This document shows, in pieces, positions 5,343 to 33,067 of a DNA stretch of 33,067 nt. The notes beneath the pieces were generated by a model, which saw only the letters and a list, made by a program, of their open reading frames with translations, did no database searches and was not told where the DNA came from. The stretch is from Pseudomonadota bacterium (GTDB lineage Bacteria; Bdellovibrionota; Bacteriovoracia; Bacteriovoracales; Bacteriovoracaceae). The stretch spans positions 1-33,067 of the forward strand of contig JAIYDC010000132.1 in the NCBI GenBank assembly GCA_027487685.1, written 5' to 3'. Position numbers and translations under genes: made by a program. Positions within the stretch are counted from its first letter, which is position 1, and the number at the start of each line of letters is the position of its first letter.

Positions 5343-5352
5343 CTTACAGCCT

Positions 5353-5469: not shown

Positions 5470-5496
5470 CGTAATTCAGCAAAGGATGGTTTTATT

Positions 5497-7285: not shown

Positions 7286-7286
7286 C

Positions 7287-8162: not shown

Positions 8163-8164
8163 AC

Positions 8165-8725: not shown

Positions 8726-8726
8726 T

Positions 8727-10928: not shown

Positions 10929-10940
10929 CCGATTAAGATT

Positions 10941-10968
10941 TTGACTTCCCCGGGAGCTGAGTCATAAT
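10941..10968 (+). promoter_or_regulatory. Sigma-70-type promoter giving a probable leaderless mRNA
   Basis: TTGACT (10941-10946) and CATAAT (10963-10968) are separated by 16 bp. The -10 box is followed by six bases and then the ATG at 10975. A start about seven bases after the -10 box would put the first nucleotide of the RNA on the A of ATG. No Shine-Dalgarno sequence precedes the ATG. Confidence 0.6.
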
Positions 10969-10974
10969 TTGTGT

Positions 10975-11934
10975 ATGACTAAATTCCTTCTATCAATTCT
11001 CCTCCTCATTTCGGCTTCATCCTTCGCTCAGGACTCCCAAGTTTCTGTAACCGAAGGAGAAACTGTGGATCCCTTAGCAGACCTCACGGTACCCGAATCT
11101 GTAACTCCTATTCCTCAGGAGGAGTCGACACCTGTGTCCGTAGCTCCTATAGAAACTCCCGTGCCGGATTCGACTTCACCAGTATTAACTACCGAGACGA
11201 GCCTCGATGGTGATGAAAAGCCCTTTAATCCTCTGGAGAGTCATTGGGTTTCGATCTTTGGTTTCGAGTATTTAAAGTACGATGTTCCTTTTGAGTTCTC
11301 AGGTGAAAAGAAAAGCTTCTCTCCGGAGGGTCAGGGAATGTGGGGAGGGCGTCTGGGGTTTGGCGGCGAGCTCTATTTAGGTCTCGGCTTAGTCACCACC
11401 ACAAGAATTGAGGGTTTTTACGTGGGGACCTTGTTTTCTCGAGTTTTAAACGCTGGCCCCAACGACGAGGATGTTGAGTTTGCTTATACTAAGCGAAACG
11501 GCAATGTGTGGGGCGTGGAAGCGACTCAAACTCTTGGATTTATTTTCGACTTTAAGACCAAGAACCCCATCTTGGACGAATGGTCGTACCTCACGATGGA
11601 GCCCTTTGTTGAGGCAGGAATCGGCAGAGCGTATGCCTATAATCGGATTAATTACGATTACGACACAGGGACCACAACAAACGAAGGGTACAGGCAGCGA
11701 GTTCGTGACGACCTAACAATTGTGAAGTTCGGAGGCGGGATAAATTTCACCTCCTCTTCAGGTTACTTTCTTTACCTCAAAGCATTTGTCAATTCTTTCG
11801 ACATAATTGAAAGAAGGATCCGAACTTACACACGTCCTGACCAGGAGACGGATTCACTGGTGAAAGAAAAACTAAAAGATGTTAACATCGATCCCATCAT
11901 GACCTACGCACTCGGAGGCGGGTATAAGTTCTAA
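10975..11934 (+). CDS. Outer-membrane beta-barrel protein with Pro/Thr/Ser-rich N-terminal linker
   Basis: This 319-residue protein has a typical signal peptide (MTKFLLSILLLISASSFA). It is followed by about 65 residues rich in Pro, Thr, Ser and acids, then a domain of alternating hydrophobic strands with many Gly and aromatic residues (for example GGRLGFGGELYLGLGLV). It ends in YALGGGYKF; a C-terminal Phe is the usual recognition signal for outer-membrane insertion. I cannot assign a named porin or adhesin family. The open frame reaches TTG 10969, but the ATG at 10975 begins the signal peptide cleanly. The following lipoprotein gene overlaps its 3' end, so the two products probably work together at the outer membrane. 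Confidence 0.75.
   Translation: MTKFLLSILLLISASSFAQDSQVSVTEGETVDPLADLTVPESVTPIPQEESTPVSVAPIETPVPDSTSPVLTTETSLDGDEKPFNPLESHWVSIFGFEYLKYDVPFEFSGEKKSFSPEGQGMWGGRLGFGGELYLGLGLVTTTRIEGFYVGTLFSRVLNAGPNDEDVEFAYTKRNGNVWGVEATQTLGFIFDFKTKNPILDEWSYLTMEPFVEAGIGRAYAYNRINYDYDTGTTTNEGYRQRVRDDLTIVKFGGGINFTSSSGYFLYLKAFVNSFDIIERRIRTYTRPDQETDSLVKEKLKDVNIDPIMTYALGGGYKF
11914..11918 (+). promoter_or_regulatory. Shine-Dalgarno sequence for a non-standard start
   Basis: A perfect GGAGG lies inside the last codons of the outer-membrane protein gene, five bases before an in-frame ATA at 11924. There is no ATG, GTG or TTG in that frame between the TGA at 11900 and the TTG at 12008. It is therefore the best candidate ribosome-binding site for the lipoprotein that follows. 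Confidence 0.5.
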
Positions 11935-12766
11935 GCATGGTCTTCTTTTATTAATCTCGCTCTTCCTTGCCCTCTCGTGCGAGGAGCAGGTTGCCGTAGG
12001 TAATAAATTGACACAGGCGGAGCGGGACTACCTGGCACAGATAGGTGTGCGCCGGTGTATCTCTGCATCTGACGATGCCTTTAAAACCTTCGAAGAAACC
12101 TCAAATGAAAAGATGCTGGACTTCGAGGCCGGCAAGGCCTGGAAGTACGAATACAAGAAAGACTCAACCGTGGTCGAAACCTCCTATATTTACGTCTGGA
12201 AAGTTGATCCTCCTAACGTCTATTTCCGGGTTCGTTTGAATAACGCGGGCACCGTCTCGAACCAATTCTGGAAGTTCGATACTTCTGGTAACGCCGATAT
12301 GCTTAGGAACATCCAGGAGAAGCATTGCGCTAAGACTCTCACGGTCACCGTCGGTAGCTCGGCGATGAAGGTGGTGATAGAAACTGACCGCACACGGGAA
12401 GATTCGGATAATCTGGTTGAGAATTCTACGGATTACCGCTTTAGCTCAAGCTTCCCAGTTTACTTCGCCGATCTGAATTTAAAGCGAACAAAAAAATACT
12501 ATGATAATGACGGAAAACTGAAGAAGACTGAGACTTATGATTATTCGCTTACCGCCATCAGTGACGTCACGCAACCGGCGGATTACACGGATGCCTCAAT
12601 TGTGAACCGAACCTACTGTGTTCCGCGCTACACCACTGCCACGGGTGCCGACACTCTCGATAACTACGCTTTCCCGTTGGAAGAAAACTGCGAGACTTCT
12701 GATGTAGGGACTGTTGATGCCAATGCAGATGCGACGCCGGATTTTGCTCCGGCCAGTGAGCTTTAG
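11924..12766 (+). CDS. Lipoprotein of unknown function, probable ATA start
   Basis: Reading from ATA 11924 gives a 280-residue protein with an ideal lipoprotein signal: a short n-region with Lys and His (xSSKHG), a hydrophobic core LLLLISLFLA, and the lipobox ALSC with Cys19 (codon 11978-11980). The only standard start codon available, TTG 12008, lies after the lipobox and would leave a cytoplasmic protein. The ATA is preceded by GGAGG and overlaps the stop codon region of the upstream barrel gene, which favours re-initiation. A single-base sequencing error after the out-of-frame ATG at 11937 is the main alternative. The mature part is mostly beta-strand-like and rich in Tyr, Thr and Asp, with conserved-looking Cys residues. 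No family recognised. Confidence 0.6.
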   Translation: MSSKHGLLLLISLFLALSCEEQVAVGNKLTQAERDYLAQIGVRRCISASDDAFKTFEETSNEKMLDFEAGKAWKYEYKKDSTVVETSYIYVWKVDPPNVYFRVRLNNAGTVSNQFWKFDTSGNADMLRNIQEKHCAKTLTVTVGSSAMKVVIETDRTREDSDNLVENSTDYRFSSSFPVYFADLNLKRTKKYYDNDGKLKKTETYDYSLTAISDVTQPADYTDASIVNRTYCVPRYTTATGADTLDNYAFPLEENCETSDVGTVDANADATPDFAPASEL

Positions 12767-18924: not shown

Positions 18925-20328
18925 TTAAGCGTTTTTCGAGAGGAAAGAGGGGAGAAGTGGAACAGTTGTCAGAACTAGTCCGATATAAAACTCATCGATC
19001 TCGGAGAAGGGGTGAATTTTATTGATCACCTTCCATGACACAATGCCGATGCAGCCGGCTATGATCGCCCTGCAGAAGGCGCGCTCTGAAATTTTCCCGG
19101 GCCACCATTGTCCCACCAGAAGTGGAAACAATAAGCATGCTGCGGACAGGCTTCCCAGCGTCTTCCAAACTTCGACTACGTCTCCCTCGAATGAGATCCC
19201 AAGCACGATCGAAACAGCGCTGACGGCGATCAAGGCCACATGGTGGTGCCAAAGACGGAATCTTTCTTTAAGTTGGAAGAGATCGTAGCTCACACAGGTC
19301 GCCGCGTTGAAAAGATAGGAGTCCAAGGTTGATAGAATCACCGCGAGGACTCCTGCTAGGATGAGCCCACGGACTCCATGCGGCACAAGCTGGATGGCGA
19401 ACTGTAAGTAGGCGTCTTCCGGGTTTGCAAATGGTAGCGCCACTCTGGCGTAAAGTGCCCCTAAGGTTGTGCAGCAATCGAAGAGAAACCAGATGAGTGT
19501 CGAGATGATAATTCCCCGGCGGGCCGTTTTGTCTGAATCGGCGGCGAGTACTCGCTGGTAGAAGTTTGGATCTACCAACGTCGAAAGTGCGATGAATCCC
19601 CAAACGAAGAGTGTCGCCGTGCTTTCTCCTCCGGTCCAGTCGAGATGGGATGGGGGAAGTTTCTCCATCAGCGTGAGCGGTGACCCCATTTCTGCCCAGG
19701 CAAAGACCACAACCAGAAAAACGGCGACAATCATGAACACGAACTGGACGAGGTCCGAAAACACGACGGCGCGAAATCCACCCCAAAGGGACCAGAGAGT
19801 CACGAGGAGCACTCCAGCGGCGGTGTTCATGAGCAGTGGGCCCCCAAAAAGACTTCGAAGAAAGAGGCCCAGGCTTATGGTATAGGCCAGGGGCAGGAGA
19901 GTGAGAAAGTTAAGGCCTGCAGTCAGGCGCTCGGCGCGGGGACCGAATAAACGCATCGCAAGCTCAGGTATCGTCAAAACATCATACTGTCGAATCTTTC
20001 GGACCAGCACGAGTGCGAAGATCAAGTAGCTCGCGTACCAAAAGAATCCCTGGGTGACGAGGTTATAAATTCCTTTCTCGTAAGCGAGTGCGGTGACGCC
20101 GAAAATTCCTCCGTACCAAGTGGCGACGAGGGTTGCGACGAAGATTGGCAGGGTGAGACGGCGGCCCATGAGAAGGAGTTCTACGGTACTCAGTTGCTCC
20201 TTGGGGGAGAGCTTACGTTTTAAGCGCTGGCCCCAAAGAACGCTCATGAGGGTCAAGAGAAGAACGGCGAAGAATACGAGCCAGTCGTAGAGGTCGAGGA
20301 ATCCGATGAGTGGCGCTTGGGAAATCAT
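18925..20328 (-). CDS. Sodium:solute symporter family protein
   Basis: A 467-residue polytopic inner-membrane protein with about 12-13 hydrophobic segments, matching the SSS (PutP/SGLT) family, which couples solute uptake to sodium entry. Typical features include the first helix LYDWLVFFAVLLLT, ATLVATWYGGIFGVTALAYE in the second, and the central DPNFYQRVLAADS with following helices. The substrate (amino acid, sugar, carboxylate or other) cannot be told from sequence. The ATG lies six bases after a TATAAT box and has no Shine-Dalgarno sequence, so the mRNA may be leaderless. It is monocistronic and divergent from the membrane-anchored protein gene at 20422. Confidence 0.88.
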   Translation of the reverse strand: MISQAPLIGFLDLYDWLVFFAVLLLTLMSVLWGQRLKRKLSPKEQLSTVELLLMGRRLTLPIFVATLVATWYGGIFGVTALAYEKGIYNLVTQGFFWYASYLIFALVLVRKIRQYDVLTIPELAMRLFGPRAERLTAGLNFLTLLPLAYTISLGLFLRSLFGGPLLMNTAAGVLLVTLWSLWGGFRAVVFSDLVQFVFMIVAVFLVVVFAWAEMGSPLTLMEKLPPSHLDWTGGESTATLFVWGFIALSTLVDPNFYQRVLAADSDKTARRGIIISTLIWFLFDCCTTLGALYARVALPFANPEDAYLQFAIQLVPHGVRGLILAGVLAVILSTLDSYLFNAATCVSYDLFQLKERFRLWHHHVALIAVSAVSIVLGISFEGDVVEVWKTLGSLSAACLLFPLLVGQWWPGKISERAFCRAIIAGCIGIVSWKVINKIHPFSEIDEFYIGLVLTTVPLLPSFLSKNA

Positions 20329-20334
20329 GGCATC

Positions 20335-20364
20335 ATTATATGTTTTGGTTTATCCTTTTGCCAT
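20335..20364 (-). promoter_or_regulatory. Promoter of the symporter gene, probably leaderless
   Basis: On the minus strand a perfect TATAAT (20340-20335) is followed by GATGCC and then the ATG at 20328. ATGGCA (20364-20359), 18 bp upstream, is an acceptable -35 box. The spacing from -10 to ATG is the same six bases as at the promoter at 10941-10968. Confidence 0.55.
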
Positions 20365-20421
20365 GAACAAAAGCCGGATGCCGAGTGCTGCGCCTGCCCC
20401 GAAGGGCAGCGGGCGAATCTG

Positions 20422-21207
20422 ATGAAGTACGTCGCCATTGCAGCGATTGTTCTCCTTATGGTGCGAGTCGACTTTATTCTCGACCTCGCGGAACGGGCCT
20501 ATGACAAGATGGCAAACCGGGGGCCAGAGATTGAAGTCAACGAGACTAAAACAAGTCGGGAAATAATCTCTGTTAAAGACGATCAGATCCTTAAGCGAAC
20601 GACGAGACAAAACTTCCTGGCCCTCCTCGATGATTACAACATTTCTCCTGGCCCAGAGCTTCGCGCCCGAGCGATCAATCTTCTGCGGGCCAATCCGAGT
20701 ACTTTTGGGGTGAAGCTCGACCGAGATCTCGAGGCCCGGATCTTTGGATGGCGCGATCTGTTGATCAACAACCGGCCTGAGCTTGTTAAGATGCTGCTGG
20801 ACCTGGGGACCCTTCTGCAAGGTGAAAATCTGGATCTCTTAAACCGCTTTTTCGCACTCTGGATGGACATTCAAATGGAAAACTTTATTGCGGCCTATGT
20901 TCAAACCAAAGACGTGAACTGCGCTATCGCACCCGTTTTTGGAGACACTATTCCTGAGGACGAAAAGCTCTTCGAGTATTACGATCGGGAGGAAGCACTC
21001 AAAGCGTTTCTGGCGAAAGAAAAAATAGACCCTGCTCAAAAGCAGCTGGCCACGAACTGCCTGCTTCAGCTTAGTCTTGTGATTCAGAAGATTGCACCTA
21101 AGGCATCGACCACTGGTGAGGCGACGCCAGCTGAAGGTAACCAGGAGAGTACTGCCACAGAAAGCGTCCCGGTCGTAGTGCCCGTAACGCCGGAGGGCTC
21201 GCCATGA
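20422..21207 (+). CDS. Membrane-anchored protein of unknown function
   Basis: The 261-residue product begins with a hydrophobic signal anchor (MKYVAIAAIVLLMVRVDFIL). A mostly helical, charged domain follows (about 45-225), and the chain ends in a low-complexity Thr/Glu/Pro tail of some 35 residues. I recognise no family. The frame is open upstream to 20317, but ATG 20422 places the anchor at the N-terminus. The gene is divergent from the symporter, and its stop overlaps the ABC-F start by 4 bp (ATGA), so the two are translationally coupled. The short frame at 20363-20422 ends exactly at this ATG. Confidence 0.7.
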   Translation: MKYVAIAAIVLLMVRVDFILDLAERAYDKMANRGPEIEVNETKTSREIISVKDDQILKRTTRQNFLALLDDYNISPGPELRARAINLLRANPSTFGVKLDRDLEARIFGWRDLLINNRPELVKMLLDLGTLLQGENLDLLNRFFALWMDIQMENFIAAYVQTKDVNCAIAPVFGDTIPEDEKLFEYYDREEALKAFLAKEKIDPAQKQLATNCLLQLSLVIQKIAPKASTTGEATPAEGNQESTATESVPVVVPVTPEGSP

Positions 21208-23045
21208 TTCAGGCAGTGGGCCTTGAGAAGGGCTACGGGACTCAACTCCTCTTTCAAAGTGTGACCTTCACTCTGGGGCGCGGTGAGCGCGTAGGCCTCG
21301 TGGGTCGCAATGGCACGGGTAAGTCCACGCTCTTTAAGATTATACTCGGGGAAGAGTCCCCGGACTCCGGAGAGGTGATTTTTCCGAAGGGCTATGTTGT
21401 CGGGACACTTAAGCAGCACCTCGTGTTTACCGAGCCCACAATTCTTGCAGAATGCGTGACCGCTCTGCGAGGGGAGAATGCAGCGTTCGAGCAATATAAG
21501 GCCGAAAAAATGCTCCTGGGCCTTGGTTTTCGGATTGAAGATTTCTCGCGCTCACCGTCAGACTTCTCTGGCGGATACCAGATCCGTTTAAACCTGGCCA
21601 AGGTCCTTGTGAGCGAACCCGACTGTCTTCTTCTTGATGAGCCGACGAACTACCTCGACATCGTTTCACTCCGCTGGCTGGCGAAATTTCTACGAGACTT
21701 TAAAGGTGAGTTGATCCTGATTACCCATGACCGCGGTTTCATGGACGAAGTCACCACCCATACGATGGGGATCTGGCGGCAGAAGCTGGTGAAGATACCT
21801 GGCACCTCGCTGAAGTACTTTGAGCAGATTATTCTCGAGGAGGAAATTTACGAAAAGACGCGACAGAATTCCGAAAAGAAGCGTAAGGACCTAGAAGATT
21901 TCGTCGATCGATTCCGCGCTAAGGCCAGCAAGGCGGCCCAGGCCCAGTCACGTCTGAAACTCCTTGAGAAGATGCCGGAGCTCGAGGCCCTGAGTATGAT
22001 GGCGAGTCTGGATTTCGAGTTCACCTTCCGGGAGTGTCCGGGTAAGGTTCTTCTCGAAGCCCGTGACCTCACTTTTGGCTATGGCGGTGATACGCTGATA
22101 CGAAATCTTAGTTTCTCGATCCTGCGAAATGATAAGATTGCCATCATCGGAAAAAACGGCAAAGGAAAGTCAACGCTCCTTAACCTTCTCTCCGGTGATC
22201 TGGAACCAGTCTCCGGCGGAATTCAGCGCAATGTGAATCTCCTTATAGGTCACTTCGGGCAGACTAACATTAATCGCCTTAACCTCGACAATACGATTGA
22301 AGAGGAAATCATGGCCGCCGACCCGACGATTGGACTTCAGCGGGCCCGCTCCCTGGCCGGCATCATGATGTTCTCCGGTGACCTGGCAAAGAAAAAGATT
22401 AAGGTCCTCTCTGGCGGCGAAAGAGCGCGTGTTCTTCTGGCAAAGCTCCTAGCAAGACCAACGAACCTCCTTCTTTTGGACGAACCGACGAACCACCTTG
22501 ATCAGGAGTCCGTTGAGGCCCTCTCCCTTGAGCTCAGAAGCTACCCCGGAGCTGTGGTCATCGTGACTCACTCAGAGGCCATGATCCGCGAGGTTGCCAC
22601 AAAGCTCGTGGTCTTTCACCACGGTAAGGCCGAGTACTTCCCGGAGACTTATGACGATTTTCTCCGGAAGATCGGTTGGGAGGAGGAGATTGTACCTACT
22701 CCGGCGACGAAGTCTCCCGACTCTAGGCCCGGCCGTCAGGAACTCAAGCGCCTTCGATCAGAGCTCATCATTGAACGGGGCCGGGAACTTAATCCGAAAA
22801 AAAAGAAAATCGAGGCACTCGAAAAAGAGATCATGTCGCTTGAGACGGAGCAGGAGGCGATTGAAGCATCGCTCATTAAATCCGCTGCCGAGGGCGACTC
22901 CAAGAAAATCCAGGATTCGTCTCAGCGTCTTGGGGCCGTGAAGAAGCGCATTGAAGAGGCCTTTGAGGAACTGACAGACCTGACCCTGGTCCATGACGAG
23001 ATTTTCTCGCGCTACGAGGCCCGCCTTCTGGAACTCGAGGGGTAA
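21204..23045 (+). CDS. ABC-F family ATPase (Uup/EttA-like)
   Basis: This 613-residue soluble protein has two ABC ATPase domains and no transmembrane segment, the mark of ABC-F proteins that act on ribosomes. Domain 1 has Walker A GRNGTGKST (34-42), signature FSGGY (121-125) and Walker B LLLDEP (142-147). Domain 2 has GKNGKGKST (316-324), LSGGE (402-406) and LLLLDEP (422-428). The interdomain linker (about 205-275) is helical and basic. A C-terminal coiled coil (about 535-613) makes it more like Uup or YheS than EttA. Family members influence translation or ribosome assembly. An antibiotic-resistance role is not indicated. Confidence 0.93.
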   Translation: MIQAVGLEKGYGTQLLFQSVTFTLGRGERVGLVGRNGTGKSTLFKIILGEESPDSGEVIFPKGYVVGTLKQHLVFTEPTILAECVTALRGENAAFEQYKAEKMLLGLGFRIEDFSRSPSDFSGGYQIRLNLAKVLVSEPDCLLLDEPTNYLDIVSLRWLAKFLRDFKGELILITHDRGFMDEVTTHTMGIWRQKLVKIPGTSLKYFEQIILEEEIYEKTRQNSEKKRKDLEDFVDRFRAKASKAAQAQSRLKLLEKMPELEALSMMASLDFEFTFRECPGKVLLEARDLTFGYGGDTLIRNLSFSILRNDKIAIIGKNGKGKSTLLNLLSGDLEPVSGGIQRNVNLLIGHFGQTNINRLNLDNTIEEEIMAADPTIGLQRARSLAGIMMFSGDLAKKKIKVLSGGERARVLLAKLLARPTNLLLLDEPTNHLDQESVEALSLELRSYPGAVVIVTHSEAMIREVATKLVVFHHGKAEYFPETYDDFLRKIGWEEEIVPTPATKSPDSRPGRQELKRLRSELIIERGRELNPKKKKIEALEKEIMSLETEQEAIEASLIKSAAEGDSKKIQDSSQRLGAVKKRIEEAFEELTDLTLVHDEIFSRYEARLLELEG

Positions 23046-23130
23046 GCGTCTTTCCTAGCATCTTGATTGTGAAATCCTATCGGATCCCAGTTCTTATAAC
23101 TTGAGTGTTTTGCGCGGATTCATTAGAGTA

Positions 23131-23955
23131 TTAAGGGTTTAGGAGCTTATGAAAGTATGTCGAATGCCCTGCTAGGGTCTCGAGGTAGGATTGGATATCT
23201 TCCCGCTGGGGCCCGGGCATTTCCGTCAGCGGATAGATATGCTCTTCAGGAACATAACGGAAGGTGAAGTTTATCCGCCGGGTTCTAAAACCTTCAACCG
23301 ATGGGCCGATGAGTTCTCCTAGTCGGTCTTCCACCCGCTGGACTCTGTGGAAGGTCTTACTCTTCCATTTATCGCCCCCAAAGATCTGTAAGGATGAGTC
23401 CTCAAGCCATTGGGAGAAGACAATGTTGTCATCGCCTAAGGTTGATTTTCCCTGAACGAACTGAAAAAAGGCACGCTCCCCAAGCGAGAGAGAGCCGACG
23501 GGGCCAGGTTCAAAGTCCTTGTGTTCTCCCACTCGCGCGCGATCAACCCATTTTCCGTCTTCAAGCTTGTCACCGTAAAAATTGATCAGGCAGGTGTTGA
23601 GTTTCCATCTGTCGGGAAAAAAGCTCCGCGGGAAGCGCTTCTTAGCGATGAATTCTATCCGGTCTACGAGCTGTTGCAAAAGCTGAGGGTAGGGCTCTGC
23701 GCGCAGGCAGCGGTGAAGAGTCCCCTTAGGTGGATGATAATAGTCGAGGCAGGCGAACTGCCAATTTCCAAGCCAGTAGACTGGTCTTAAGAGAGGCCGG
23801 TGCTCGTCCCCTACAGGGGGTGGGTTATTAACCGAAAATCGCTCTTCCCAGAGGGGGTGGAGTGTCCCAAGCCAACTCAGTAGCTGGCCTCTCTCCTTGC
23901 GGTCAACGAAGGGAAACTGGTAGTGGATTCCGAGGGGATAGTTCGGGGTCTTCAT
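23131..23955 (-). CDS. AlkB-like Fe(II)/2-oxoglutarate-dependent dioxygenase
   Basis: A 274-residue protein whose second half matches the AlkB superfamily. LINFYGD (123-129) resembles the conserved NxY region. The iron ligands are His145 and Asp147 (GEHKDFEP) and His203 (TFHRVQ). The 2-oxoglutarate-binding stretch RINFTFR (227-233) matches the AlkB RxNxTxR signature. AlkB proteins demethylate alkylated nucleic acids, while relatives act on other substrates. The 80-residue N-terminal extension is unusual and I do not recognise it. The gene diverges from the acyltransferase/LuxE/LuxC operon with about 100 bp between starts, so a role tied to that operon is possible but equally it may be an independent repair enzyme. 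Confidence 0.8.
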   Translation of the reverse strand: MKTPNYPLGIHYQFPFVDRKERGQLLSWLGTLHPLWEERFSVNNPPPVGDEHRPLLRPVYWLGNWQFACLDYYHPPKGTLHRCLRAEPYPQLLQQLVDRIEFIAKKRFPRSFFPDRWKLNTCLINFYGDKLEDGKWVDRARVGEHKDFEPGPVGSLSLGERAFFQFVQGKSTLGDDNIVFSQWLEDSSLQIFGGDKWKSKTFHRVQRVEDRLGELIGPSVEGFRTRRINFTFRYVPEEHIYPLTEMPGPQREDIQSYLETLAGHSTYFHKLLNP

Positions 23956-24060
23956 AAGTTTAAGCTTGAAACTACCTCCCCCCTAGATCAGAGTCAAACA
24001 CCTTGTAAAAAGGTGGTGGAGAGCTTGAGCGAAACCCGGGGCAGCGGTACTCTCTGGATC

Positions 24061-25197
24061 ATGAAAGTTCACCTCGCTTCAGAAGACGACGTCTTCCAGA
24101 TTTCGCAGCTCTACTTCGACGTCTATCAGGGACTCTACCCGGACCCTCTAATGAAGGACTTTCACCTTATCCGGGAGTTCATTAGGTCCGACTCGGGCTT
24201 TTGGTTTGTCACCAAAGGTGAGCACAATCAGATCGTGGCTTCAGTCTTGGCCGCCTATGATGTGGAGAACTTGATTGCCAAAGCATTCGGCGCTGTCGTC
24301 CGACCAGATGTGAGAGGTCAGGGGATCATGGAGGAGCTACTCAGCTTCGGGATCAATTACCTACGAGAGAAAACCCCGGGGGTAGACGTTATCTATTCGA
24401 CGACCCGAACGGTTAACGAGGCGGCCCAGACTTTGACGGAGAAGCTTGGTTTTAAGAAGCTCGGAATCTTCCCCAATGCGCACCGGACACTGGAATATGA
24501 GACCCATTGCCTGGCCGCGATCGTTTACCCCTCGGCCCTTGAAAAACGGGTTAACGGCTACATGCTTCATCATGAGTTAGAGTCCCTCTATGGCATCGTT
24601 CGTAACGAAATGGGGCTCAACGAGCTTGAACCCATCATTCCAGATAAGCCGTCAAAAGTTCTCGTTGAACCCGGAGAACTCGAGCTGATCAAATCTCAGA
24701 AATTCGTGGCCTATAGGTACAATAACCTCAAGGCCGAAAAACGGCTCGAGTTTGAGTTCTTCCCGTTTCATCAACCCAACCTTGTGATCATGGCCCCGGA
24801 TCAATCGATCGAGCTTTTCTGCCACCTCTCACCGGTGGACGGCTACAGTGTCATCGTCGGTGGTAAGATGCCCGGAAATCTTAATTTCACTCAGTTGTTT
24901 CTTCGTGCGAATACACTCCTCCGTGATGCCGGTGCACGCTACATCGAAGTCATCGTCCGTGCGGATCGACCTAAAATCCTCGAGAGTATCCTGAAGGCCA
25001 AATTTATTCCCTGTGGCTTCTTTCCAGCGTTCCAGCTTATCGGTACCAAGCGCCATGACTTCGTGGTCCTGAGTCGCTCCTTTGAGATCTTCGACTTTCA
25101 GAACGTACGCCTTAAGGGCAAGAACCAGGTCTATCTTGAAGAGTACTTCAAGGCGTGGAAGCGTATGTCTCTGAACCCTAAGCTCCTCGAGCTATGA
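24061..25197 (+). CDS. GNAT-family acyltransferase with C-terminal extension
   Basis: From ATG 24061 the product has 378 residues. The N-terminal half is a GNAT fold. Motif A, VRPDVRGQGIMEELL (80-94), carries the acyl-CoA pyrophosphate-binding R/QxxGxG pattern, and TEKLGFKKLGIF follows as the motif B end. The C-terminal half (about 160-378) has no obvious match and may be a second, degenerate GNAT-like domain. An earlier start, TTG 24025, sits behind GGTGGTGGAGAG and would add 12 residues; the choice is not certain. Its stop overlaps the LuxE start (ATGA), so it is the first gene of a coupled three-gene operon. It may supply or receive the acyl group handled by the next two enzymes, in the position LuxD fills in lux operons (inference). 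Confidence 0.85.
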   Translation: MKVHLASEDDVFQISQLYFDVYQGLYPDPLMKDFHLIREFIRSDSGFWFVTKGEHNQIVASVLAAYDVENLIAKAFGAVVRPDVRGQGIMEELLSFGINYLREKTPGVDVIYSTTRTVNEAAQTLTEKLGFKKLGIFPNAHRTLEYETHCLAAIVYPSALEKRVNGYMLHHELESLYGIVRNEMGLNELEPIIPDKPSKVLVEPGELELIKSQKFVAYRYNNLKAEKRLEFEFFPFHQPNLVIMAPDQSIELFCHLSPVDGYSVIVGGKMPGNLNFTQLFLRANTLLRDAGARYIEVIVRADRPKILESILKAKFIPCGFFPAFQLIGTKRHDFVVLSRSFEIFDFQNVRLKGKNQVYLEEYFKAWKRMSLNPKLLEL

Positions 25198-26297
25198 AGG
25201 CGACTGATCGGCTCCTCGAGAGCGACCCCTTCGATTTTTCTTCTTCCGCCAAGTCGTTGTTTCGTGAGAGCTTCAGAGAAAACGTGCTCCATCACTACGA
25301 GCGCCACGAATTCACGCGTAAACTTTGGGACAGATTCGGAGTTCACCCTTCAGGGCTCTTAACTGAGGATGATCTCGTGCGGGCCCCGGGGACCATGGTT
25401 CATCTGTTTAAGGAGCATGAGTTTTGTTCCGTCCCTCGGGAATCTCTTGCCCTTGTTCTCACAAGCTCTGGAACGGGAGGACAAAAGTCCCAGCAGTTCC
25501 TCGACTCTGAGAGCCTAGCGAACGTGAAGACGCTAGCTCTTGCGATCCATCGCTCCCTGGGGATGGCGAGTCGCACTGCTTACAATTACCTCTGTTTTAC
25601 CTATGACCCTGCAGTGGCCAACGATCTCGGGACTGCCTTTACCGATGAGCTTTTGACTAACTTCACTGGCAAGCGCGAGGTTTACTACGCCATCCAGTGG
25701 GATCCGATAGCGAAGGCTTTTGCACTCAATGAGAGCGGTGTGGTCGAGACGCTCCGGCGTTTCGAAGCCTCGGGTCATCCTACCAGGATACTGGGATTCC
25801 CAGCATTTTTGTTTGAAGTGATCACTAAGTTTAATCTTCATCTTCAACTGGCCCCGGACTCGTGGCTTCAGACCGGTGGTGGTTGGAAGGGGAAGGCGGA
25901 TAAAGAGATTCCTAAGCGAGAGTTTCGCCGTTTTATCAGCGAGCGGCTGGGAATCCCTGAGGCCAACCAGCGGGATATGTTCGGCATGGTTGAGCATGGA
26001 ATCCCTTACGTGGACTGCGAGCGCGGGAATCTGCATATTCCCAATTACGCTCGGGTTTTTGTCCGCTCGCCTCATGACCTTTCTCTTCGAGCACGTGGAG
26101 AGCGAGGCCTTCTGCACTACCTCTGCTCCTATAACTTCAGCTACCCCGCCTCGAGTCTACTGACGACTGATTACGGGCATATCGGGACCTGCGACTGCGC
26201 ACTCGGGGGTGATGTGCTTTTTCTCACGGGCCGCGCCGGAGTTTCCAAACACAAGGGCTGCGCTTTGAAGGCCCTCGAACTCTTGGAGACAAAATAA
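25194..26297 (+). CDS. LuxE-type acyl-protein synthetase
   Basis: A 367-residue adenylate-forming enzyme of the LuxE family. LuxE activates a fatty acid with ATP, takes the acyl group onto its own C-terminal cysteine and passes it to LuxC for reduction. The phosphate-binding loop is SSGTGGQKS (91-99). TGGGWKGK (227-234) and DMFGMVEH (261-268) are the conserved adenylation motifs. Cys356 lies 11 residues from the C-terminus (HKGCALKA), matching the position of the acylated Cys in Vibrio LuxE. A CDC pair at 333-335 lies near the end. It overlaps the GNAT gene by 4 bp and the LuxC fusion gene by 1 bp. No luxA or luxB is present. Confidence 0.9.
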   Translation: MKATDRLLESDPFDFSSSAKSLFRESFRENVLHHYERHEFTRKLWDRFGVHPSGLLTEDDLVRAPGTMVHLFKEHEFCSVPRESLALVLTSSGTGGQKSQQFLDSESLANVKTLALAIHRSLGMASRTAYNYLCFTYDPAVANDLGTAFTDELLTNFTGKREVYYAIQWDPIAKAFALNESGVVETLRRFEASGHPTRILGFPAFLFEVITKFNLHLQLAPDSWLQTGGGWKGKADKEIPKREFRRFISERLGIPEANQRDMFGMVEHGIPYVDCERGNLHIPNYARVFVRSPHDLSLRARGERGLLHYLCSYNFSYPASSLLTTDYGHIGTCDCALGGDVLFLTGRAGVSKHKGCALKALELLETK

Positions 26298-28690
26298 TGT
26301 ACTGGTTCGGTGAAACGATCGGAGTCGACGGAAGCTGGCGCGAGGACGATCGCTGGAAGGGCATTCCTGCCAGAAAACGAGCGCTGGCGGCAACGTCTCT
26401 CGAGCGGATTCTGGAACTCCTCGATGCATTTTCCCGAGAATCTTTCTCGGAGGCACTGCCAGAGATTATTCGCGATTCGGGTTTCGCTGCAGCCGATGCT
26501 GAGGCGACACTGGGACTTCTGCCCAATCTCCTCTGCCGGGAGTCCTTGGAAAAGAGGCTTCGGGCCGAATTTACCAACATTCGGGTGCTCGATACATTTA
26601 CGAAAATTCCTCATGGTAGCTTTAAGGTTCGTGCAGTTCCTTTGGGGGTGCTGCTACATGTGACCGCTGGAAATGTTTTTTTGAGTGCCATTGATTCTCT
26701 CATCATGGGCTTCATAACGAAGAACGTTTCTATCCTAAAGGTCAGTGGACAGAACCGCTTTTTCCCTCTGTTCTTTGCGGAAAAACTGCGTGCCTTTGAT
26801 CGGGAAGGTATCATCGCCGATAAGTTTGCAGTCCTTCACTGGAAGGGCGGCGATGAGGCGACGGAGAGTTTTCTGAAGAGTAAGGTGGACGCCATCATCG
26901 CATGGGGCGGGGAGGAGATGATTGCTACCTATCAGCGCAATCTCCCGGCCAAGGTGAAGTTCCTGGGATTCGGGCCTAAACTCTCACTTCAGGTTGTGAC
27001 CACCCGAGGCCTCGCGGGGAAAGACCTGGCCGCAGTAGCGAGAAAGATTGTTTCGGACATCGTTCCTTGGGACCAATCGGCCTGCGCTTCCCCCCAGAAC
27101 CTCTACGTGCAGGAAGGGATCCTTGAAACCGAACTCCTCGCAGCACTCGACACTGCCTTCTTGGAAGCCCCTGAGCGGGGCCAGCTAGACGATGATGAGG
27201 CGACTGAGATCTTGAAGGAGCGCTACCGGGGCCTTTATTCGGAACTCATGGACGGGGGCCAGGTGGTCGCCGGTGCTCAGCACCTAGTCCACCTTGAGGA
27301 GAACCGGCACCCGAAGCCATCTCCGCTCCACCGCTCGCTTATCATTAAGCGCTTTCGGGACTTCGGTGAGCTCCACGAACTCTTGACCCCTTTCTCCTAC
27401 TACCTCCAGTCTTGCAGCTATCTCGTGGCAGATGATGAGAAGGAGAGTTTCTTGTGCGAACTTTGCACCAGCGGAGTTAAGCGATTTGCACCTCTGGGAA
27501 CCGTGACTTGGGGAATGGAGGGCGCGCCTCACGACGGACGTTTTGTCCTGAGAGACCTCGTCAATTTCATCGGCGACGAACTCAGGGCCGTGGACTACGG
27601 TGAGGCCCCTGGCCCCACTCACGATGCTTCGATACTCAAGGTGGCCTTCGCTCAGGGCCCACACCCCCGGGGCTACATCTTCTCGTCCGGTGGCACGACA
27701 GGAGAGCCTAAGTTCATCCACTTCAGCTACGAAGAATTCGATTACATGAGCGACATGCTGGCCATTAACTTACGTGCCCAGGGCCTGGTTCCTGGAATGA
27801 CCGTAGCGAATCTTTTCGTCGCTGGTAACTTGTGGTCGTCATTCCTCTGCGTGGAGAGGGCGCTGGAGAAGATCGGCGCTATTCAACTTCCGATTGGAGG
27901 TCTTTGCGCTCAGGAGAACATCCTGTTGTATCTCAAGAAGTTCAGGCCCGATGTGGTGATGGGGATTCCATCCATGCTCGTCGCAACCGCCGAGTTTGCG
28001 CTTTCCCGTGGGGAGGAGCTGGAAGTTCCGCTGGTTTTCTACGCCGGAGAAGCGCTCTCGGAGGCACGAGTGGATTACCTCCGGAAAGTTTGGAACACAA
28101 AAACCTTCGGATCGGCTGGATACGCTTCCGTGGACGCGGGGGTCATTGGTTATCAGTGCGACCGATGCGGGCCCGGAGAGCATCATCTTTTTTCGGATTG
28201 GATAGCTCTGGAAGTCGTAGATGGGGAAGCGGTCGTCTCTTCTCTTGTCCGGGACACGATGCCGGTGCGCCGGTACCGGACTGGCGATCGGGTGGAGTGG
28301 ATCGGGGAGTGCTCCTGCGGGAGGCCAGACAGGCGCTTCCGGCTGCTTGGCAGGATTGATAATACGATTCTTATCTGGTCCTGCCGCCTTCTAACGGCGG
28401 ACATTGAAGAAAGCCTCGCCCATTACGGAGTGTTGACCTACCAGGTTCAGATTTCAGAGGTGGTAGAAAGCGCTTCCGTTCGGGAAGTCCTTTCGATAAA
28501 TTACGAAGCCGGCCATGGCCCCGTCGACCAAGAGGCCTTTCTCTCAGACCTTTATCAGCGCTCACGAGATCTGAAAGATACTATCGATTACCTAACCTTC
28601 AGAAAAAACATTGGCATTATGGCCGTTGAGGCCGTCCCAAGAAACCCGCGGACTGGCAAAATTTCGACGATTGTCGACCTACGGGTGTAA
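26297..28690 (+). CDS. LuxC-type acyl reductase fused to PaaK-type adenylating ligase
   Basis: A 797-residue fusion. Residues about 1-430 are a LuxC acyl-CoA/acyl-protein reductase, an aldehyde-dehydrogenase-like enzyme that makes aldehyde with NADPH. The reactive cysteine is Cys263 in WDQSACASPQ, and GVLLHVTAGNVFLSA (117-131) fits the nucleotide region. Residues about 455-797 are a PaaK/CapK-type adenylate-forming domain: ATP loop SSGGTTGEPK (463-472), RYRTGD (659-664), a probable zinc site from CDRC (621-624), H629 and CSCG (672-675), and the C-terminal catalytic Lys788 in NPRTGKI. The join shows no frameshift. With the upstream LuxE it forms a complete acid-to-aldehyde reductase with two separate activating domains. 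The fusion is unlike the stand-alone LuxC of luminous bacteria. Substrate unknown. Confidence 0.88.
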   Translation: MYWFGETIGVDGSWREDDRWKGIPARKRALAATSLERILELLDAFSRESFSEALPEIIRDSGFAAADAEATLGLLPNLLCRESLEKRLRAEFTNIRVLDTFTKIPHGSFKVRAVPLGVLLHVTAGNVFLSAIDSLIMGFITKNVSILKVSGQNRFFPLFFAEKLRAFDREGIIADKFAVLHWKGGDEATESFLKSKVDAIIAWGGEEMIATYQRNLPAKVKFLGFGPKLSLQVVTTRGLAGKDLAAVARKIVSDIVPWDQSACASPQNLYVQEGILETELLAALDTAFLEAPERGQLDDDEATEILKERYRGLYSELMDGGQVVAGAQHLVHLEENRHPKPSPLHRSLIIKRFRDFGELHELLTPFSYYLQSCSYLVADDEKESFLCELCTSGVKRFAPLGTVTWGMEGAPHDGRFVLRDLVNFIGDELRAVDYGEAPGPTHDASILKVAFAQGPHPRGYIFSSGGTTGEPKFIHFSYEEFDYMSDMLAINLRAQGLVPGMTVANLFVAGNLWSSFLCVERALEKIGAIQLPIGGLCAQENILLYLKKFRPDVVMGIPSMLVATAEFALSRGEELEVPLVFYAGEALSEARVDYLRKVWNTKTFGSAGYASVDAGVIGYQCDRCGPGEHHLFSDWIALEVVDGEAVVSSLVRDTMPVRRYRTGDRVEWIGECSCGRPDRRFRLLGRIDNTILIWSCRLLTADIEESLAHYGVLTYQVQISEVVESASVREVLSINYEAGHGPVDQEAFLSDLYQRSRDLKDTIDYLTFRKNIGIMAVEAVPRNPRTGKISTIVDLRV

Positions 28691-28761
28691 TTCTTTCATC
28701 CCGAACCGTGTAAGAATCGTCCTGAGTTAAAATGGCAGAAATCCATTCCAGAGGACGCTCT

Positions 28762-29871
28762 ATGAAGCTTTTTGCGATTCTAACGGTTTTTGCCTTCCTT
28801 TCTTCCGCACAAGCGCTTGAGCAATTCGGGGGTGTTCGCTTCCACTCTTCGGTGCCTGAAGATCAGCTCACGGCCTTGAAGACCGACCTCTCCTATGTTT
28901 TCACCAACCCAAACCCCAATCCTGACGCCGAATTCCTCCAGGTGACAGGCCTCTCGGATGGCTCAGGGCCTGTGCTTCATAATTGGCTCTACAACCGCGT
29001 CCGCTACATCGTTGGGACGGATTTCAACATTGACCGAGCACTCATCCGCCGACCAAAGCTTGGATTTCGGTACCCGGAAACTCCCATTCCAGAGGCCCTC
29101 CGAGGGATCCAAATGACTTCTATGCAAATCCTCATGGCCAACATTGGAAGCCTAGTTTATCTCATTGGGAAAAAAAGCGACAAGCTCTACGGACTCTACC
29201 TCGATGGCCGCTTTGTGTCTGTCAGGTCAAATCGAGCGGGAATCCTGCAAGTGGGGCCAGGGCTTTTTAGCGAAACTTTCCAGATCAATAAAACTGACCC
29301 TAATGCCCCCGCTAACTCTGTTGCTCGTGGAGGAATCCTCTTCCACGAGGCAAGGCACAGTGATGGCAACGGCGAGGGGACTGGCTTTCTCCATGAGGAG
29401 TGCCCTGCTAACCATATGTTTGCCGGAGCGCGTGCTTGTGAACGCATCGGAAACGGATCTTACACAGTCGGAGGACTGGCGATGCGGCACCTCCTAAAAA
29501 ACTGTACGAGCTGCACGACAGAAGAGAAGACCGTTCTTGCAACCCAAATTGCCGATGCATTTAGCAGGGTTATCCGTGGAATCGACTCTGCAAAGGTGGA
29601 GGCACGGAGAAAACTTGAACTGGAGTGGAATGCCCTGAATCAGGTCAAAAACACGTACCAAAGCCAGGATTGGCCAGAATCACAGCAGGCACAGGTCAAT
29701 GAAGAGTTAGATGCGATATATAAAAGGCTCTACGAACTCGATGAACGAATCAATAGATTTAACGTGACTTCAGATGCTGCTCTCCCGGTCCGCGACGCGA
29801 ACGCCGAAGGCACGTTTGCTGAAGAGCCGGTGTCGAAGACTGCACCCATGATGACGAGGTCACTCCGATGA
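28762..29871 (+). CDS. Secreted HExxH protein, paralogue 1 (probable zinc metallopeptidase)
   Basis: From ATG 28762 the product has 369 residues and a clean signal peptide (MKLFAILTVFAFLSSAQA). FHEARHSDGNG at 194-204 contains HExxH (His195, Glu196, His199), the zinc-binding and catalytic motif of many metallopeptidases. The metzincin third ligand (HExxHxxGxxH) is not present, as position 205 is Glu. Other conserved His residues (211, 218) could serve. Four cysteines (214, 226, 248, 251) probably make disulfides, as expected outside the cytoplasm. A helical tail follows. An upstream in-frame ATG at 28732 lacks the signal-peptide position, and GAGGA precedes 28762. It is closely similar along its length to the product at 30481-31578. 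Family not recognised. Confidence 0.75.
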   Translation: MKLFAILTVFAFLSSAQALEQFGGVRFHSSVPEDQLTALKTDLSYVFTNPNPNPDAEFLQVTGLSDGSGPVLHNWLYNRVRYIVGTDFNIDRALIRRPKLGFRYPETPIPEALRGIQMTSMQILMANIGSLVYLIGKKSDKLYGLYLDGRFVSVRSNRAGILQVGPGLFSETFQINKTDPNAPANSVARGGILFHEARHSDGNGEGTGFLHEECPANHMFAGARACERIGNGSYTVGGLAMRHLLKNCTSCTTEEKTVLATQIADAFSRVIRGIDSAKVEARRKLELEWNALNQVKNTYQSQDWPESQQAQVNEELDAIYKRLYELDERINRFNVTSDAALPVRDANAEGTFAEEPVSKTAPMMTRSLR

Positions 29872-30392
29872 AAAAGCGCTACTTTATCCTGCTTGTTGCT
29901 GTTCTTGCTCTCGGAGCATTCTACCTCAAAAACACCCCGTCTTCCGAGGAGATAAGTGCATCGGACTCTGAGGTCATCAACCGGCCTCAGAGTACCAAAC
30001 AACATCTCGTTGCAAAGACGATTAAGCAGACCGCCGTAAGTGCTGTTCAGTCTACCTCGGTCCCCGAGCTACCTTCCCTGGACGAGTTTCCGACTCTGGC
30101 CGACCTCCAAGACCTCAGCGAAGATGAAGTTCATCATACTCCAGAGGCCGTCATAAATGGTGGTCGCCTGGTGGGCCAGCTCATCGACCGCGCTGAAAAG
30201 AATCCGCCGCTCCGGGAAAAGACATTGCAGCTTCTTAAGTCCTGTGCCGAGAGCGACGAGGTCGTGACTGCTGTTCGTGCTGTCTGCTGGAAGAATACTG
30301 TTAGTCAGATGAAGAATTGGCGTGTCTTCATCCCTCTGAGCGACATGAAGGTGCCTGCAAATGTGCTCGAGCTCAGTTCTCAGCTCCCTTAG
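29868..30392 (+). CDS. Small membrane-anchored or secreted protein between two HExxH paralogues
   Basis: A 174-residue protein with an N-terminal hydrophobic segment (KRYFILLVAVLALGAFYL) that could be an uncleaved anchor or a signal peptide. A low-complexity Ser/Thr/Glu linker follows, then a helical C-terminal domain (about 85-174) with two cysteines. No family recognised. Its ATG overlaps the stop of the upstream HExxH gene by 4 bp, so it is translated together with that protein. That makes a partner, chaperone or inhibitor of the enzyme a reasonable but untested idea. No equivalent follows the second paralogue. Confidence 0.65.
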   Translation: MKKRYFILLVAVLALGAFYLKNTPSSEEISASDSEVINRPQSTKQHLVAKTIKQTAVSAVQSTSVPELPSLDEFPTLADLQDLSEDEVHHTPEAVINGGRLVGQLIDRAEKNPPLREKTLQLLKSCAESDEVVTAVRAVCWKNTVSQMKNWRVFIPLSDMKVPANVLELSSQLP

Positions 30393-30480
30393 GGTGATGA
30401 GCAGATAATCTTTTCATAAACTCTGGTTATTCTGCTGCCACGTGTTAAAAGGCTCCACCTATTATCAATTGGAGCGATTT

Positions 30481-31578
30481 ATGAAATTCCTCGCCGTTCT
30501 TACTGTTCTCAGTTGCCTCTCTTCCGCCCACGCACTCGAGGAGTTCGGAGGCATCAGCTTCCACTCGTCTGTTCCGGCCGATCAGGTGGCAAGCTTGAAG
30601 AACGATCTCCGCTACGTCTTCACTAACCCGGTGACCCAGTCGGATGCGGAGTTCCTTTCCACGACGGGTCTTACTGCAGGAACAGGCGATCACCTCCATA
30701 ACTGGATCTACAATCGGGTCCGCTATATTGTGGGCGAGAACTACGACCTGCGGAGGAACTTCCGGGCCCGGCCAAAACTCTTTTTTAAATACCCTAAGTC
30801 GCCCCTTCCAGACGGAATGTCGGGAAATAGCATTAACGTAGTTCAGGTGGTCATGTCGAACCTTGGAGGAGCGGTCTACCTCACAGGCAAAAAGGAAGAC
30901 GTCCTTTTAGGTTTAGACATGGATGGAGATTTGGTTTCCGTGAAGTCCCCGCGAACTGGAATCTTGCAGGTCGGTTCTGGCCTGTTCTACGAGGGCTTTT
31001 CGATAAACAAGTCGGATGTGAACGCTCCGGCCAACTCCGTCTCTCGCTTAGGGACCCTCTTCCATGAGGCACGCCACAGCGATGGCAACGGTAAGAGTAC
31101 AGGCTTTCTTCACGACATCTGCCCTGCTGGACACCAGTATGAAGGCCACGCAGCTTGTGAAGTTTCCGGTAACGGTTCTTATACTCTTGGCGCACTCTCA
31201 GAGCGTCACATGGTTCAGAACTGTGGCACTTGCACCACCGAAGAGAAGACGATTCTTGTCGCGCGGATTGCTGATTCCTTTAACCGCGTCTTCGATCGAA
31301 GCAAGGCCCAGGCCCGTGCCACACTCCTGGCCGAACTGAAGACGGCCAAAGAGCTTTTGCAGATGTACCAAACGGGTTCTTGGCCCCGGACTATGCGTGC
31401 ACAAGTGGACGGAGAGATCCGCGCTCTTCGGAGTAAGATCACTACCCTCGAAGCTCAGCTTGCCAATTTGACAATCGTTCCGGACGTTCGCCCAGCCTCG
31501 TTGGATCCACGCGCCGAAGGAAACTTCAAAGAAGAATCCGTCCAAAAGTCTGCGGGCCTTATGCGCAAGTCCCTTTAA
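30481..31578 (+). CDS. Secreted HExxH protein, paralogue 2 (probable zinc metallopeptidase)
   Basis: From ATG 30481, behind GGAG, the product has 365 residues with signal peptide MKFLAVLTVLSCLSSAHA. It matches the product at 28762-29871 from end to end: both start the mature protein with ALExFGG, share the NRVRYIVG, ILQVG and NAPANSV blocks, and have LFHEARHSDGNG at the same residue numbers (HEARH 195-199). The histidines and cysteines after the motif (FLHxxCPxxH, NCxxCTTEEK) are also kept. This is therefore a tandem duplication in which both copies keep the putative active site, so both are probably functional. The C-terminal helical tail is the most diverged part. Family not recognised. Confidence 0.75.
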   Translation: MKFLAVLTVLSCLSSAHALEEFGGISFHSSVPADQVASLKNDLRYVFTNPVTQSDAEFLSTTGLTAGTGDHLHNWIYNRVRYIVGENYDLRRNFRARPKLFFKYPKSPLPDGMSGNSINVVQVVMSNLGGAVYLTGKKEDVLLGLDMDGDLVSVKSPRTGILQVGSGLFYEGFSINKSDVNAPANSVSRLGTLFHEARHSDGNGKSTGFLHDICPAGHQYEGHAACEVSGNGSYTLGALSERHMVQNCGTCTTEEKTILVARIADSFNRVFDRSKAQARATLLAELKTAKELLQMYQTGSWPRTMRAQVDGEIRALRSKITTLEAQLANLTIVPDVRPASLDPRAEGNFKEESVQKSAGLMRKSL

Positions 31579-31636
31579 AAGGTTCCCGCACACTTCTACG
31601 TAAGCGCCGCTTAGGCAGAAGTGTGCGGGAACCTTT
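31578..31636. repeat. Perfect 20-bp inverted repeat between convergent genes (palindromic repeat element, copy 2)
   Basis: The 20-nt arm at 31578-31597 (AAAGGTTCCCGCACACTTCT) and its exact complement at 31617-31636 enclose a 19-nt loop, which holds a second palindrome, TAAGCG-C-CGCTTA (31601-31613). It follows the stop of the second HExxH gene, while its right arm codes for the last residues of the YkgJ-like protein on the minus strand. It may terminate transcription from both sides. Its minus strand shares 22 nt with the element at 6155-6181. Confidence 0.75.
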
Positions 31637-32165
31637 CCCAGAGGTCGAGAAGAGCGTTCGGGATCGGGGCCTTCTCCCATTGAAGGCCAAGCTCTTTACG
31701 AAGCCGGGCGTTTTCCTCCAGCTCTTCAGGAAAGAGTTCGTCTCTTTGACGGAGAAGTTCGAGCTCGGAAAAACAGTGCTCCGTCGCCTTAAGCTCTACA
31801 TGATGTGAATTAAAGGCAAGGCACCCGTAGGGTTTAACCGTGCGGGGAAGTGGGCACCCTAGCTCCCCCTGACCGAAAAAGGGACAAGTGTACGTCTTGC
31901 GAAGGTAAGATCGGGCCCCAGAAAACTTCGCTTCCAGCCGGTATCTTTGCACCGTGGACAGGAGATTCTCTTTGAGTTCCGGCAGGAGCTTCCCTGCGTC
32001 TTGAAGATAAACCATGAGTTCCCATGCTTCGAGAGGGGTAACCAGCATCGAATTGGCCTCAAAAGTACAGCAGGTGCCAGGGCAGCCGAGGCAGCTCATG
32101 CCCTGGGCCTCAAGGCCTTCCATTTGGTCCATCAACGTCTGGCGTCTTGTGAGGTCCTTGCTCAT
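31611..32165 (-). CDS. YkgJ family cysteine-cluster protein
   Basis: This 184-residue protein carries the CxxCxxxCC cluster of the YkgJ (Zn/Fe-chelating) family: CLGCPGTCC at residues 25-33. Further cysteines occur in TCPFFGQGELGCPLP and KPYGCLAF, which complete the expected metal site. The biochemical role of the family is unclear; binding of a zinc or iron-sulphur centre is inferred from the cysteines. The ATG follows AAGGTGC. The C-terminal residues (about ERFPHTSA) are encoded by one arm of the large inverted repeat at 31578-31636. It is divergent from the potassium channel gene, whose promoter lies over its start. Confidence 0.85.
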   Translation of the reverse strand: MSKDLTRRQTLMDQMEGLEAQGMSCLGCPGTCCTFEANSMLVTPLEAWELMVYLQDAGKLLPELKENLLSTVQRYRLEAKFSGARSYLRKTYTCPFFGQGELGCPLPRTVKPYGCLAFNSHHVELKATEHCFSELELLRQRDELFPEELEENARLRKELGLQWEKAPIPNALLDLWERFPHTSA

Positions 32166-32186
32166 CCTGCACCTTGTACTTACAAT
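32158..32186 (+). promoter_or_regulatory. Promoter of the potassium channel gene
   Basis: TTGCTC (32158-32163) and TACAAT (32181-32186) are exactly 17 bp apart. The ATG of the channel gene follows the -10 box by eight bases, so the predicted leader is at most a few nucleotides. No Shine-Dalgarno sequence is present. The -35 box overlaps the first codons of the divergent YkgJ-like gene. Confidence 0.5.
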
Positions 32187-32194
32187 AGTGTTTC

Positions 32195-33028
32195 ATGAAA
32201 AGACCTTTTAACGTTGAACGAAAGAATCTCCCCGCGCGGGCGCGCAGTGACCTCTACTACGACCTCCTGGCCATGGGCTGGGCCCGATCGCTCGCTCTCT
32301 TTCTGGTGGCGATTTTGCTCCTGAATTCGATTTTCGCAACTCTCTACTGGCTTGACCCAGGCGCCATTCAGAATTCCGATGGGTCATGGGCATCTGCCTT
32401 CTTTTTCAGCGTCCAGACCCTCGGCACAATTGGATATGGCTACCTCGCACCTGCCTCAACCTACGCCAATATCCTCGTGACCGTTCAGTCCATGGTGGGC
32501 CTCGTAATCCTTGCGATACTCACAGGTTTTTTCTTCACTAAGTTTTCGCGCCCCACCGCCCGCATCGACTTCACAGACAACATCATTGTAACTGACTTTG
32601 ATGGCCAGCGCGTCCTGATGTTTCGGATTGCGAACACCAGGAGTAATCAGATTATCGATACCCGGATTCACCTCACGGGCATGAAGCGTGTGACGACCGC
32701 CGAGGGGAAACCCTTCCTACGCTTCATTGACCTCAAACTCCTTCGAAACCATACGCCGATGATCGCGATCAGTATGACCGTTATTCACGTCATTGATGAA
32801 ACGAGTCCGCTGCATGGAATGAGCGAGACCGCCATGCGTAATTGTCAGATCGAGTTTCTGGTTACCACCATCGGAACCGACAGCACCTTTGGACAAACGA
32901 TTCACGAGATTCACACCTACATGCCGGAAGACTTGGTCTGGGACAAGAAATTTGCGGATATGCTGACCTTTGGAGAAAGCGGTCTGCGCATCGTGGACCA
33001 CGGAAAGTTTAACCTTTTAGTAGATTGA
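32195..33028 (+). CDS. Inward-rectifier potassium channel (KirBac type)
   Basis: A 277-residue two-helix potassium channel. TM1 spans about 31-52, the pore helix and selectivity filter TLGTIGYGYLAP include TIGYG at 78-82, and TM2 spans about 91-115. The remainder, from about 118, is the immunoglobulin-like cytoplasmic Kir domain (IIVTDFDGQRVLMFRIAN, then TGMKRVTTAEGKPFLRFIDL). An N-terminal amphipathic slide helix (about 15-28, including DLYYDLLAMGW) is present as in KirBac1.1. It would conduct K+ across the inner membrane as a tetramer. Gating ligands cannot be told from sequence. Length and motif order are normal. Monocistronic so far as visible. Confidence 0.94.
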   Translation: MKRPFNVERKNLPARARSDLYYDLLAMGWARSLALFLVAILLLNSIFATLYWLDPGAIQNSDGSWASAFFFSVQTLGTIGYGYLAPASTYANILVTVQSMVGLVILAILTGFFFTKFSRPTARIDFTDNIIVTDFDGQRVLMFRIANTRSNQIIDTRIHLTGMKRVTTAEGKPFLRFIDLKLLRNHTPMIAISMTVIHVIDETSPLHGMSETAMRNCQIEFLVTTIGTDSTFGQTIHEIHTYMPEDLVWDKKFADMLTFGESGLRIVDHGKFNLLVD

Positions 33029-33067
33029 TTTTTATCGCGACGCGCACGGCCATAGACGCTCTTAAAT
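33029..33067. other. Window end, no feature seen
   Basis: The last 39 bases after the channel gene contain no start codon with a convincing reading frame and no clear terminator hairpin. Confidence 0.4.

Follow-up and report, generated by a model that had tools for sequence, protein, structure and literature searches.

What can a LuxE-LuxC gene pair be for when no luciferase-family gene is found in its genome bin, and when LuxC continues into a PaaK-like adenylating domain? This question is raised by an operon in a 33,067-nucleotide stretch of DNA (the window), which corresponds to contig C61 in a metagenome assembly from Bdellovibrionota; its named relatives place it near Bacteriovoracaceae. 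Our best explanation, to which we give about an even chance (roughly 0.5), is a conserved biosynthetic cassette that reduces a carboxylic acid and probably yields a small, secreted molecule, either a specialised metabolite or a signal.

A three-gene operon and its setting

Three genes on the + strand overlap head to tail, by 4 bases between GNAT and LuxE and by 1 base between LuxE and the fusion. The genes lie where a preliminary description of this DNA had put them, and Pfam and NCBIfam searches located their domains. The features considered here are as follows.

24061..25197, + strand: tandem-GNAT N-acyltransferase, 378 aa (Pfam Acetyltransf_1, AlphaFold2, Foldseek, VIA-align)
25194..26297, + strand: LuxE-type acyl-protein synthetase, 367 aa (PF04443, profile match to 7xc6 chain E)
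26297..28690, + strand: LuxC:PaaK fusion, 797 aa (Pfam, TIGR02155 and fold; frame kept across genomes)
26384..27580, + strand: LuxC acyl reductase domain of the fusion, residues 30-428, nucleophile Cys263 (PF05893, 7xc6 chain A)
27677..28687, + strand: PaaK-like adenylating domain of the fusion, residues 461-797 (TIGR02155; alignments with 2y4o, 2y27 and 4r1l)
23131..23955, - strand: 2OG-Fe(II) oxygenase, divergent neighbour (PF13532, E 7e-23)

The synteny of the 2OG-Fe(II) oxygenase gene is kept within the genus; elsewhere it usually does not adjoin the operon, and it therefore probably lies outside it. Otherwise, the genes around the operon in the window have mostly housekeeping roles (accA, gmk, relA/spoT, YicC, malic enzyme). 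The window's own three-gene operon type has neither an exporter nor another pathway gene next to it, and the window has no glycosyltransferase cluster and no glycan or flagellin island around the operon. Thus, the neighbourhood gives no support to the lipid or envelope product that had been suggested. A role in envelope or glycan modification would have a precedent in enterobacterial flagellin glycosylation islands, which are reported to carry LuxE and LuxC genes (PMC4875605). We consider it improbable here, given the mostly housekeeping neighbours and the fact that, besides the genes of the operon itself, only an MFS transporter recurs across phyla.

A second copy of the operon was found on contig C80 of the same assembly, with 79.5% identity to C61 over 14 kb. 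The identity is about 79% in both compared stretches of the window (446-12000 and 19126-33066), and the contamination of the bin is 3.7%. Since the synteny with C80 at this level runs far beyond the operon, an in-genome duplication is less likely, and by sequence the two contigs probably represent two related species binned together.

Downstream of the operon, the window encodes two paired related proteins (28732-29871 and 30442-31578) with signal-like N-termini and a HEARH (HExxH) motif; neither has a Pfam match, and the pair adjoins the operon in some relatives only. Further on, 32195-33028 encodes a homologue of inward-rectifier (KirBac-type) potassium channels. A promoter scan, uninformative in itself, found no sigma-70-like site, and a PHROGs search returned no match for LuxE or the fusion.

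LuxE and the LuxC domain without luciferase

LuxE matches PF04443 over the whole protein (E 8e-33) and chain E of the solved LuxC-LuxE complex of Photobacterium phosphoreum, 7xc6 (profile match, E 9e-43). The LuxC domain matches PF05893 over fusion residues 31-422 (E 1e-62) and chain A of the same complex (profile match, E 4e-62). The C-terminal Cys356 of LuxE and Cys263 of LuxC, both pointed out earlier, align with their counterparts in 7xc6. Cys356 and Glu267 of LuxE are each present in 47/47 aligned relatives, and Cys263 is present in 48/48. Judged by these residues, the LuxE-LuxC pair keeps what is expected of an active pair. The operon shares with 7xc6 both folds, both active cysteines and adjacent genes; it differs in that its LuxC is 22% identical over the LuxC fold match, is fused to PaaK, and is accompanied by an extra tandem GNAT.

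The luciferase family (PF00296, luxA/luxB) was not found in the bin, from which 2-3% of the genome is missing, while the control search was positive in 10 of 14 genomes. The reported absence of luxA and luxB is thereby upheld for the bin. The homology of LuxC and LuxE would by itself allow the operon to be a relict light system, making aldehyde for a luciferase that is encoded at another place in the genome. This reading is largely refuted by the luciferase search, positive in 10 control genomes, and by scores far from those of luminous Lux enzymes. A predicted acid-to-aldehyde function apart from luciferase is well supported, since the cysteines of LuxE and LuxC are conserved and the luciferase family is missing.

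Could the pair be a long-chain fatty acid reductase, in which LuxE and LuxC provide the fatty aldehyde or alcohol from which a lipid or wax-like product is made, with GNAT as the acyltransferase of that lipid? The best match of both enzymes is indeed the luminous complex 7xc6. However, the curated long-chain models score far below their cut-offs (NF052244 for LuxE, 69.5 bits against 550; NF052251 for LuxC, 107 bits against 750), so a fatty-acid substrate specificity cannot be transferred. Furthermore, PF02273 (LuxD) has no match in the bin, as it has none in the control genomes, and lipid genes do not recur near the operon across phyla. We therefore regard a fatty acid reductase as unlikely. 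The operon is set apart from the Lux fatty acid reductase by a bin in which no luciferase-family gene was found; the LuxD search gave no match either, but its control was silent too.

The PaaK-like half of the fusion

The presence of LuxC and PaaK in one chain was borne out by PF05893 and by the PaaK model TIGR02155, which matches fusion residues 461-796 clearly (E 2e-23), although the Pfam AMP-binding match is weak and under the cut-off (E 0.0017). An AlphaFold model of the fusion (pLDDT 90) gave fold matches to 7xc6 LuxC and 2y27 PaaK1, and in Foldseek the two halves go separately to the luminous LuxC-LuxE complex and to PaaK structures. In more than 70 genomes the fusion is encoded as a single open frame, about 730-900 aa long.

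The second half keeps the motifs of the PaaK family (2y27, 2y4o, 4r1l): the adenylating fold, the P-loop (SGGTTG), TGD, GR and the C-terminal catalytic lysine, Lys788, which is present in 48/48 aligned relatives. Cys263, Cys356 and Lys788 are invariant across phyla. In contrast to PaaK proteins, the domain sits behind LuxC, and pairwise matches start only at PaaK residue 94-97, the first 90 residues or so having no counterpart. The PaaK moiety had been called complete; the fusion stands and the completeness does not.

The second departure concerns catalysis. In alignments with 2y4o, 2y27 and 4r1l, the A5 adenylation Glu column is occupied by Ser611, and the YGLSE stretch of PaaK is aligned with GYAS in the fusion. 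Among 48 aligned relatives this column holds Ser in 41 and Thr in 7, and Asp613, two residues on, is present in 47/48. The YASVD motif is also found in most of the free second PaaK proteins (PaaK2) of operon type B. The earlier statement that all key residues are visible was therefore wrong for the adenylation Glu, which is replaced in 48/48 relatives, and right for Cys263, Cys356 and Lys788. Lacking this residue, the fused PaaK domain may be non-activating, and whether one polypeptide both adenylates and reduces, as was proposed, becomes uncertain since the adenylation Glu is lost.

This residue also bears on the possibility of an aryl or other small-acid reductase with its two halves fused. 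In grixazone synthesis, GriC (adenylation) and GriD (reduction) turn an acid into an aldehyde (PMC10179220), a split of labour that the fusion would join in one chain, and the PaaK half matches the aryl-acid ligases PaaK and, weakly, EhpF. However, the PaaK half is without the A5 Glu, a separate LuxE is nearly always present too, and the likeness to GriC/GriD, an AMP-binding protein with a reductase, is one of description. We find this reading slightly less likely than a fatty acid reductase. By description, GriC and GriD are also set apart as two separate proteins, whereas the operon adds LuxE and GNAT. Classical carboxylic acid reductases (A-T-R) place a carrier between the adenylation and reductase domains; in the fusion, the LuxC-type reductase comes first with PaaK after it, and Pfam found no phosphopantetheine carrier (PP-binding) domain.

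The tandem GNAT

The first gene product matches Pfam Acetyltransf_1 (E 6e-11), and its AlphaFold2 model (pLDDT 93) shows the GNAT topology twice. The first half is of the active type, and the second is GNAT-like and degenerate by sequence. With VIA-align, both halves were covered mainly in a few tandem GNATs (a histidine acetyltransferase and a Kribbella GNAT), at rmsd 4 to 8.

GNAT is retained and LuxE and the fusion are absent in three genomes of one genus (L130, L131 and L132, that is G109, G116 and G204). In L130 and L131 the genes on either side of it are those that flank it in a fourth genome, which has the full set (L139, G129). Thus, LuxE and LuxC:PaaK were lost or gained as one unit: the reductase pair is a module, and GNAT is separable from it. 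Side by side with L139, L130 and L131 have LuxE and LuxC:PaaK cleanly missing between GNAT and the same downstream gene. These three genomes led us to reject the idea that GNAT and the reductase are fixed partners. GNAT had been said to stand in the place of LuxD; its tandem N-acyltransferase fold and its survival without LuxE and the fusion count against this, and its persistence in the three sister genomes means that it may serve another process.

Distribution, linkage and selection

A named-genome scan with the fusion returned 132 relatives, of which 80 were kept as named loci. In a six-frame profile search of these loci, LuxE was found at 75/80 and GNAT at 72/80, the remainder being mostly contig ends; since the loci were selected by the fusion, these counts are uninformative on LuxE or GNAT elsewhere. 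GNAT and LuxE are thus conserved neighbours of the fusion, and the predominant order is GNAT-LuxE-LuxC:PaaK. The apparent lack of GNAT at many loci was largely an artefact of ORF calling in GC-rich DNA, and the six-frame search recovers the gene. Counted from genome lists, 291 genomes of the phylum include 85 with GNAT, 83 with LuxE and 80 with both.

Hosts of the fusion include Bacteriovoracaceae, Oligoflexia, Elusimicrobiota, and cultured Kitasatospora and Herbihabitans. It is also present in metagenome-assembled genomes labelled Riflebacteria, Muiribacteriota, Wallbacteria, Chloroflexi, Eremiobacterota, Cloacimonadota and Obscuribacterales, labels that may be wrong, a doubt that does not touch the Kitasatospora and Herbihabitans isolates.

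Pairwise distances of GNAT, LuxE, LuxC and PaaK correlate at 0.82-0.87, a level reached in 0/300 permutations, which is the mark of co-inheritance. Compared with the sister copy, GNAT has a dN/dS of 0.023, LuxE of 0.034, the fusion of 0.083 and its short linker of 0.104, all rough values with dS near saturation. These ratios point to strongly purifying selection on the operon.

Operon subtypes

Three subtypes were distinguished. Type A, that of the window, has the three genes only. In type B, a free PaaK2 follows the fusion, and an MFS transporter lies ahead of GNAT in some loci. Type C comprises PaaK2, a longer tandem-GNAT protein, LuxE, the fusion, sometimes an MFS transporter, and GNAT. The transporter adjoining the non-window subtypes matches PF07690 and in some cases also PF05977. 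In a tree of PaaK domains, the fused PaaK1 and the free PaaK2 of type B fall in separate clades. One Kitasatospora locus has, on one strand, an AMP-binding/carrier (NRPS-like) gene followed by GNAT, LuxE and the fusion. Apart from the operon's own genes and the MFS transporter, no neighbour family recurs across phyla, and no lipid gene does.

The longer tandem-GNAT proteins adjoining type C operons have about 480 aa (L126-L129; L140, 12048-13505, + strand). The L140 protein carries an N-terminal RsbW-like HATPase domain, and a gene for a SpoIIE-type phosphatase comes after it.

A proposed pathway

The conserved biosynthetic cassette is favoured by gene order and linkage, correlated distances, invariant catalytic residues, low dN/dS, and the LuxC-LuxE and PaaK folds. 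Against it stand a window type with no adjoining exporter, a PaaK domain without the adenylation Glu, and a GNAT that persists alone. From these observations we infer the chemical steps, their order, the substrate and the export. LuxE would adenylate the acid and hold the acyl group on Cys356. The acyl group would then move to Cys263 of LuxC, where reduction by NAD(P)H would yield an aldehyde or, further on, an alcohol. The fused PaaK, with PaaK2 where present, may bind or activate a second acid by an altered adenylation chemistry; alternatively, PaaK and PaaK2 may pass on the same acid. The tandem GNAT would N-acylate an amine, as substrate or as intermediate. That the metabolite is small and exported is suggested by the MFS transporter of other subtypes and by the NRPS-like gene at the Kitasatospora locus, and the signal that had been put forward as one possible product is slightly favoured by the same transporter; the rest of that suggestion, a lipid or envelope product, is not.

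A narrower version is tentative: a hitherto undescribed class of specialised-metabolite or signal pathways, common to Elusimicrobiota, actinomycetes and bacteria related to predators, where LuxE and a LuxC:PaaK with the unusual Ser/Asp motif would make a secreted N-acylated aldehyde.

An open-access literature search found no paper describing the fused operon. A use of LuxC and LuxE that involves no luminescence is already known from the flagellin glycosylation islands, where, in the portion of PMC4875605 available, the Lux genes accompany ACP, FabG and glycan genes and neither a fusion nor a tandem GNAT is mentioned. An AMP-binding protein working with a reductase to turn an acid into an aldehyde is likewise known (PMC10179220). 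As far as our tools could show, what is new is the LuxC:PaaK fusion as a unit conserved together with LuxE and GNAT, along with the breadth of its distribution and the Ser/Asp motif.

If the proposed pathway holds, the aldehyde chemistry best known from bioluminescence would also serve a widespread, unstudied biosynthetic route. With the Ser/Asp motif, the ways in which adenylating enzymes can change their chemistry could be put to a sharp test. Since cultured actinomycetes carry the operon, a search for its product is feasible.

Near the Herbihabitans operon we also noted a radical SAM protein (L114, 12296-13603, + strand), which, judged by eye, is like lysine 2,3-aminomutase.
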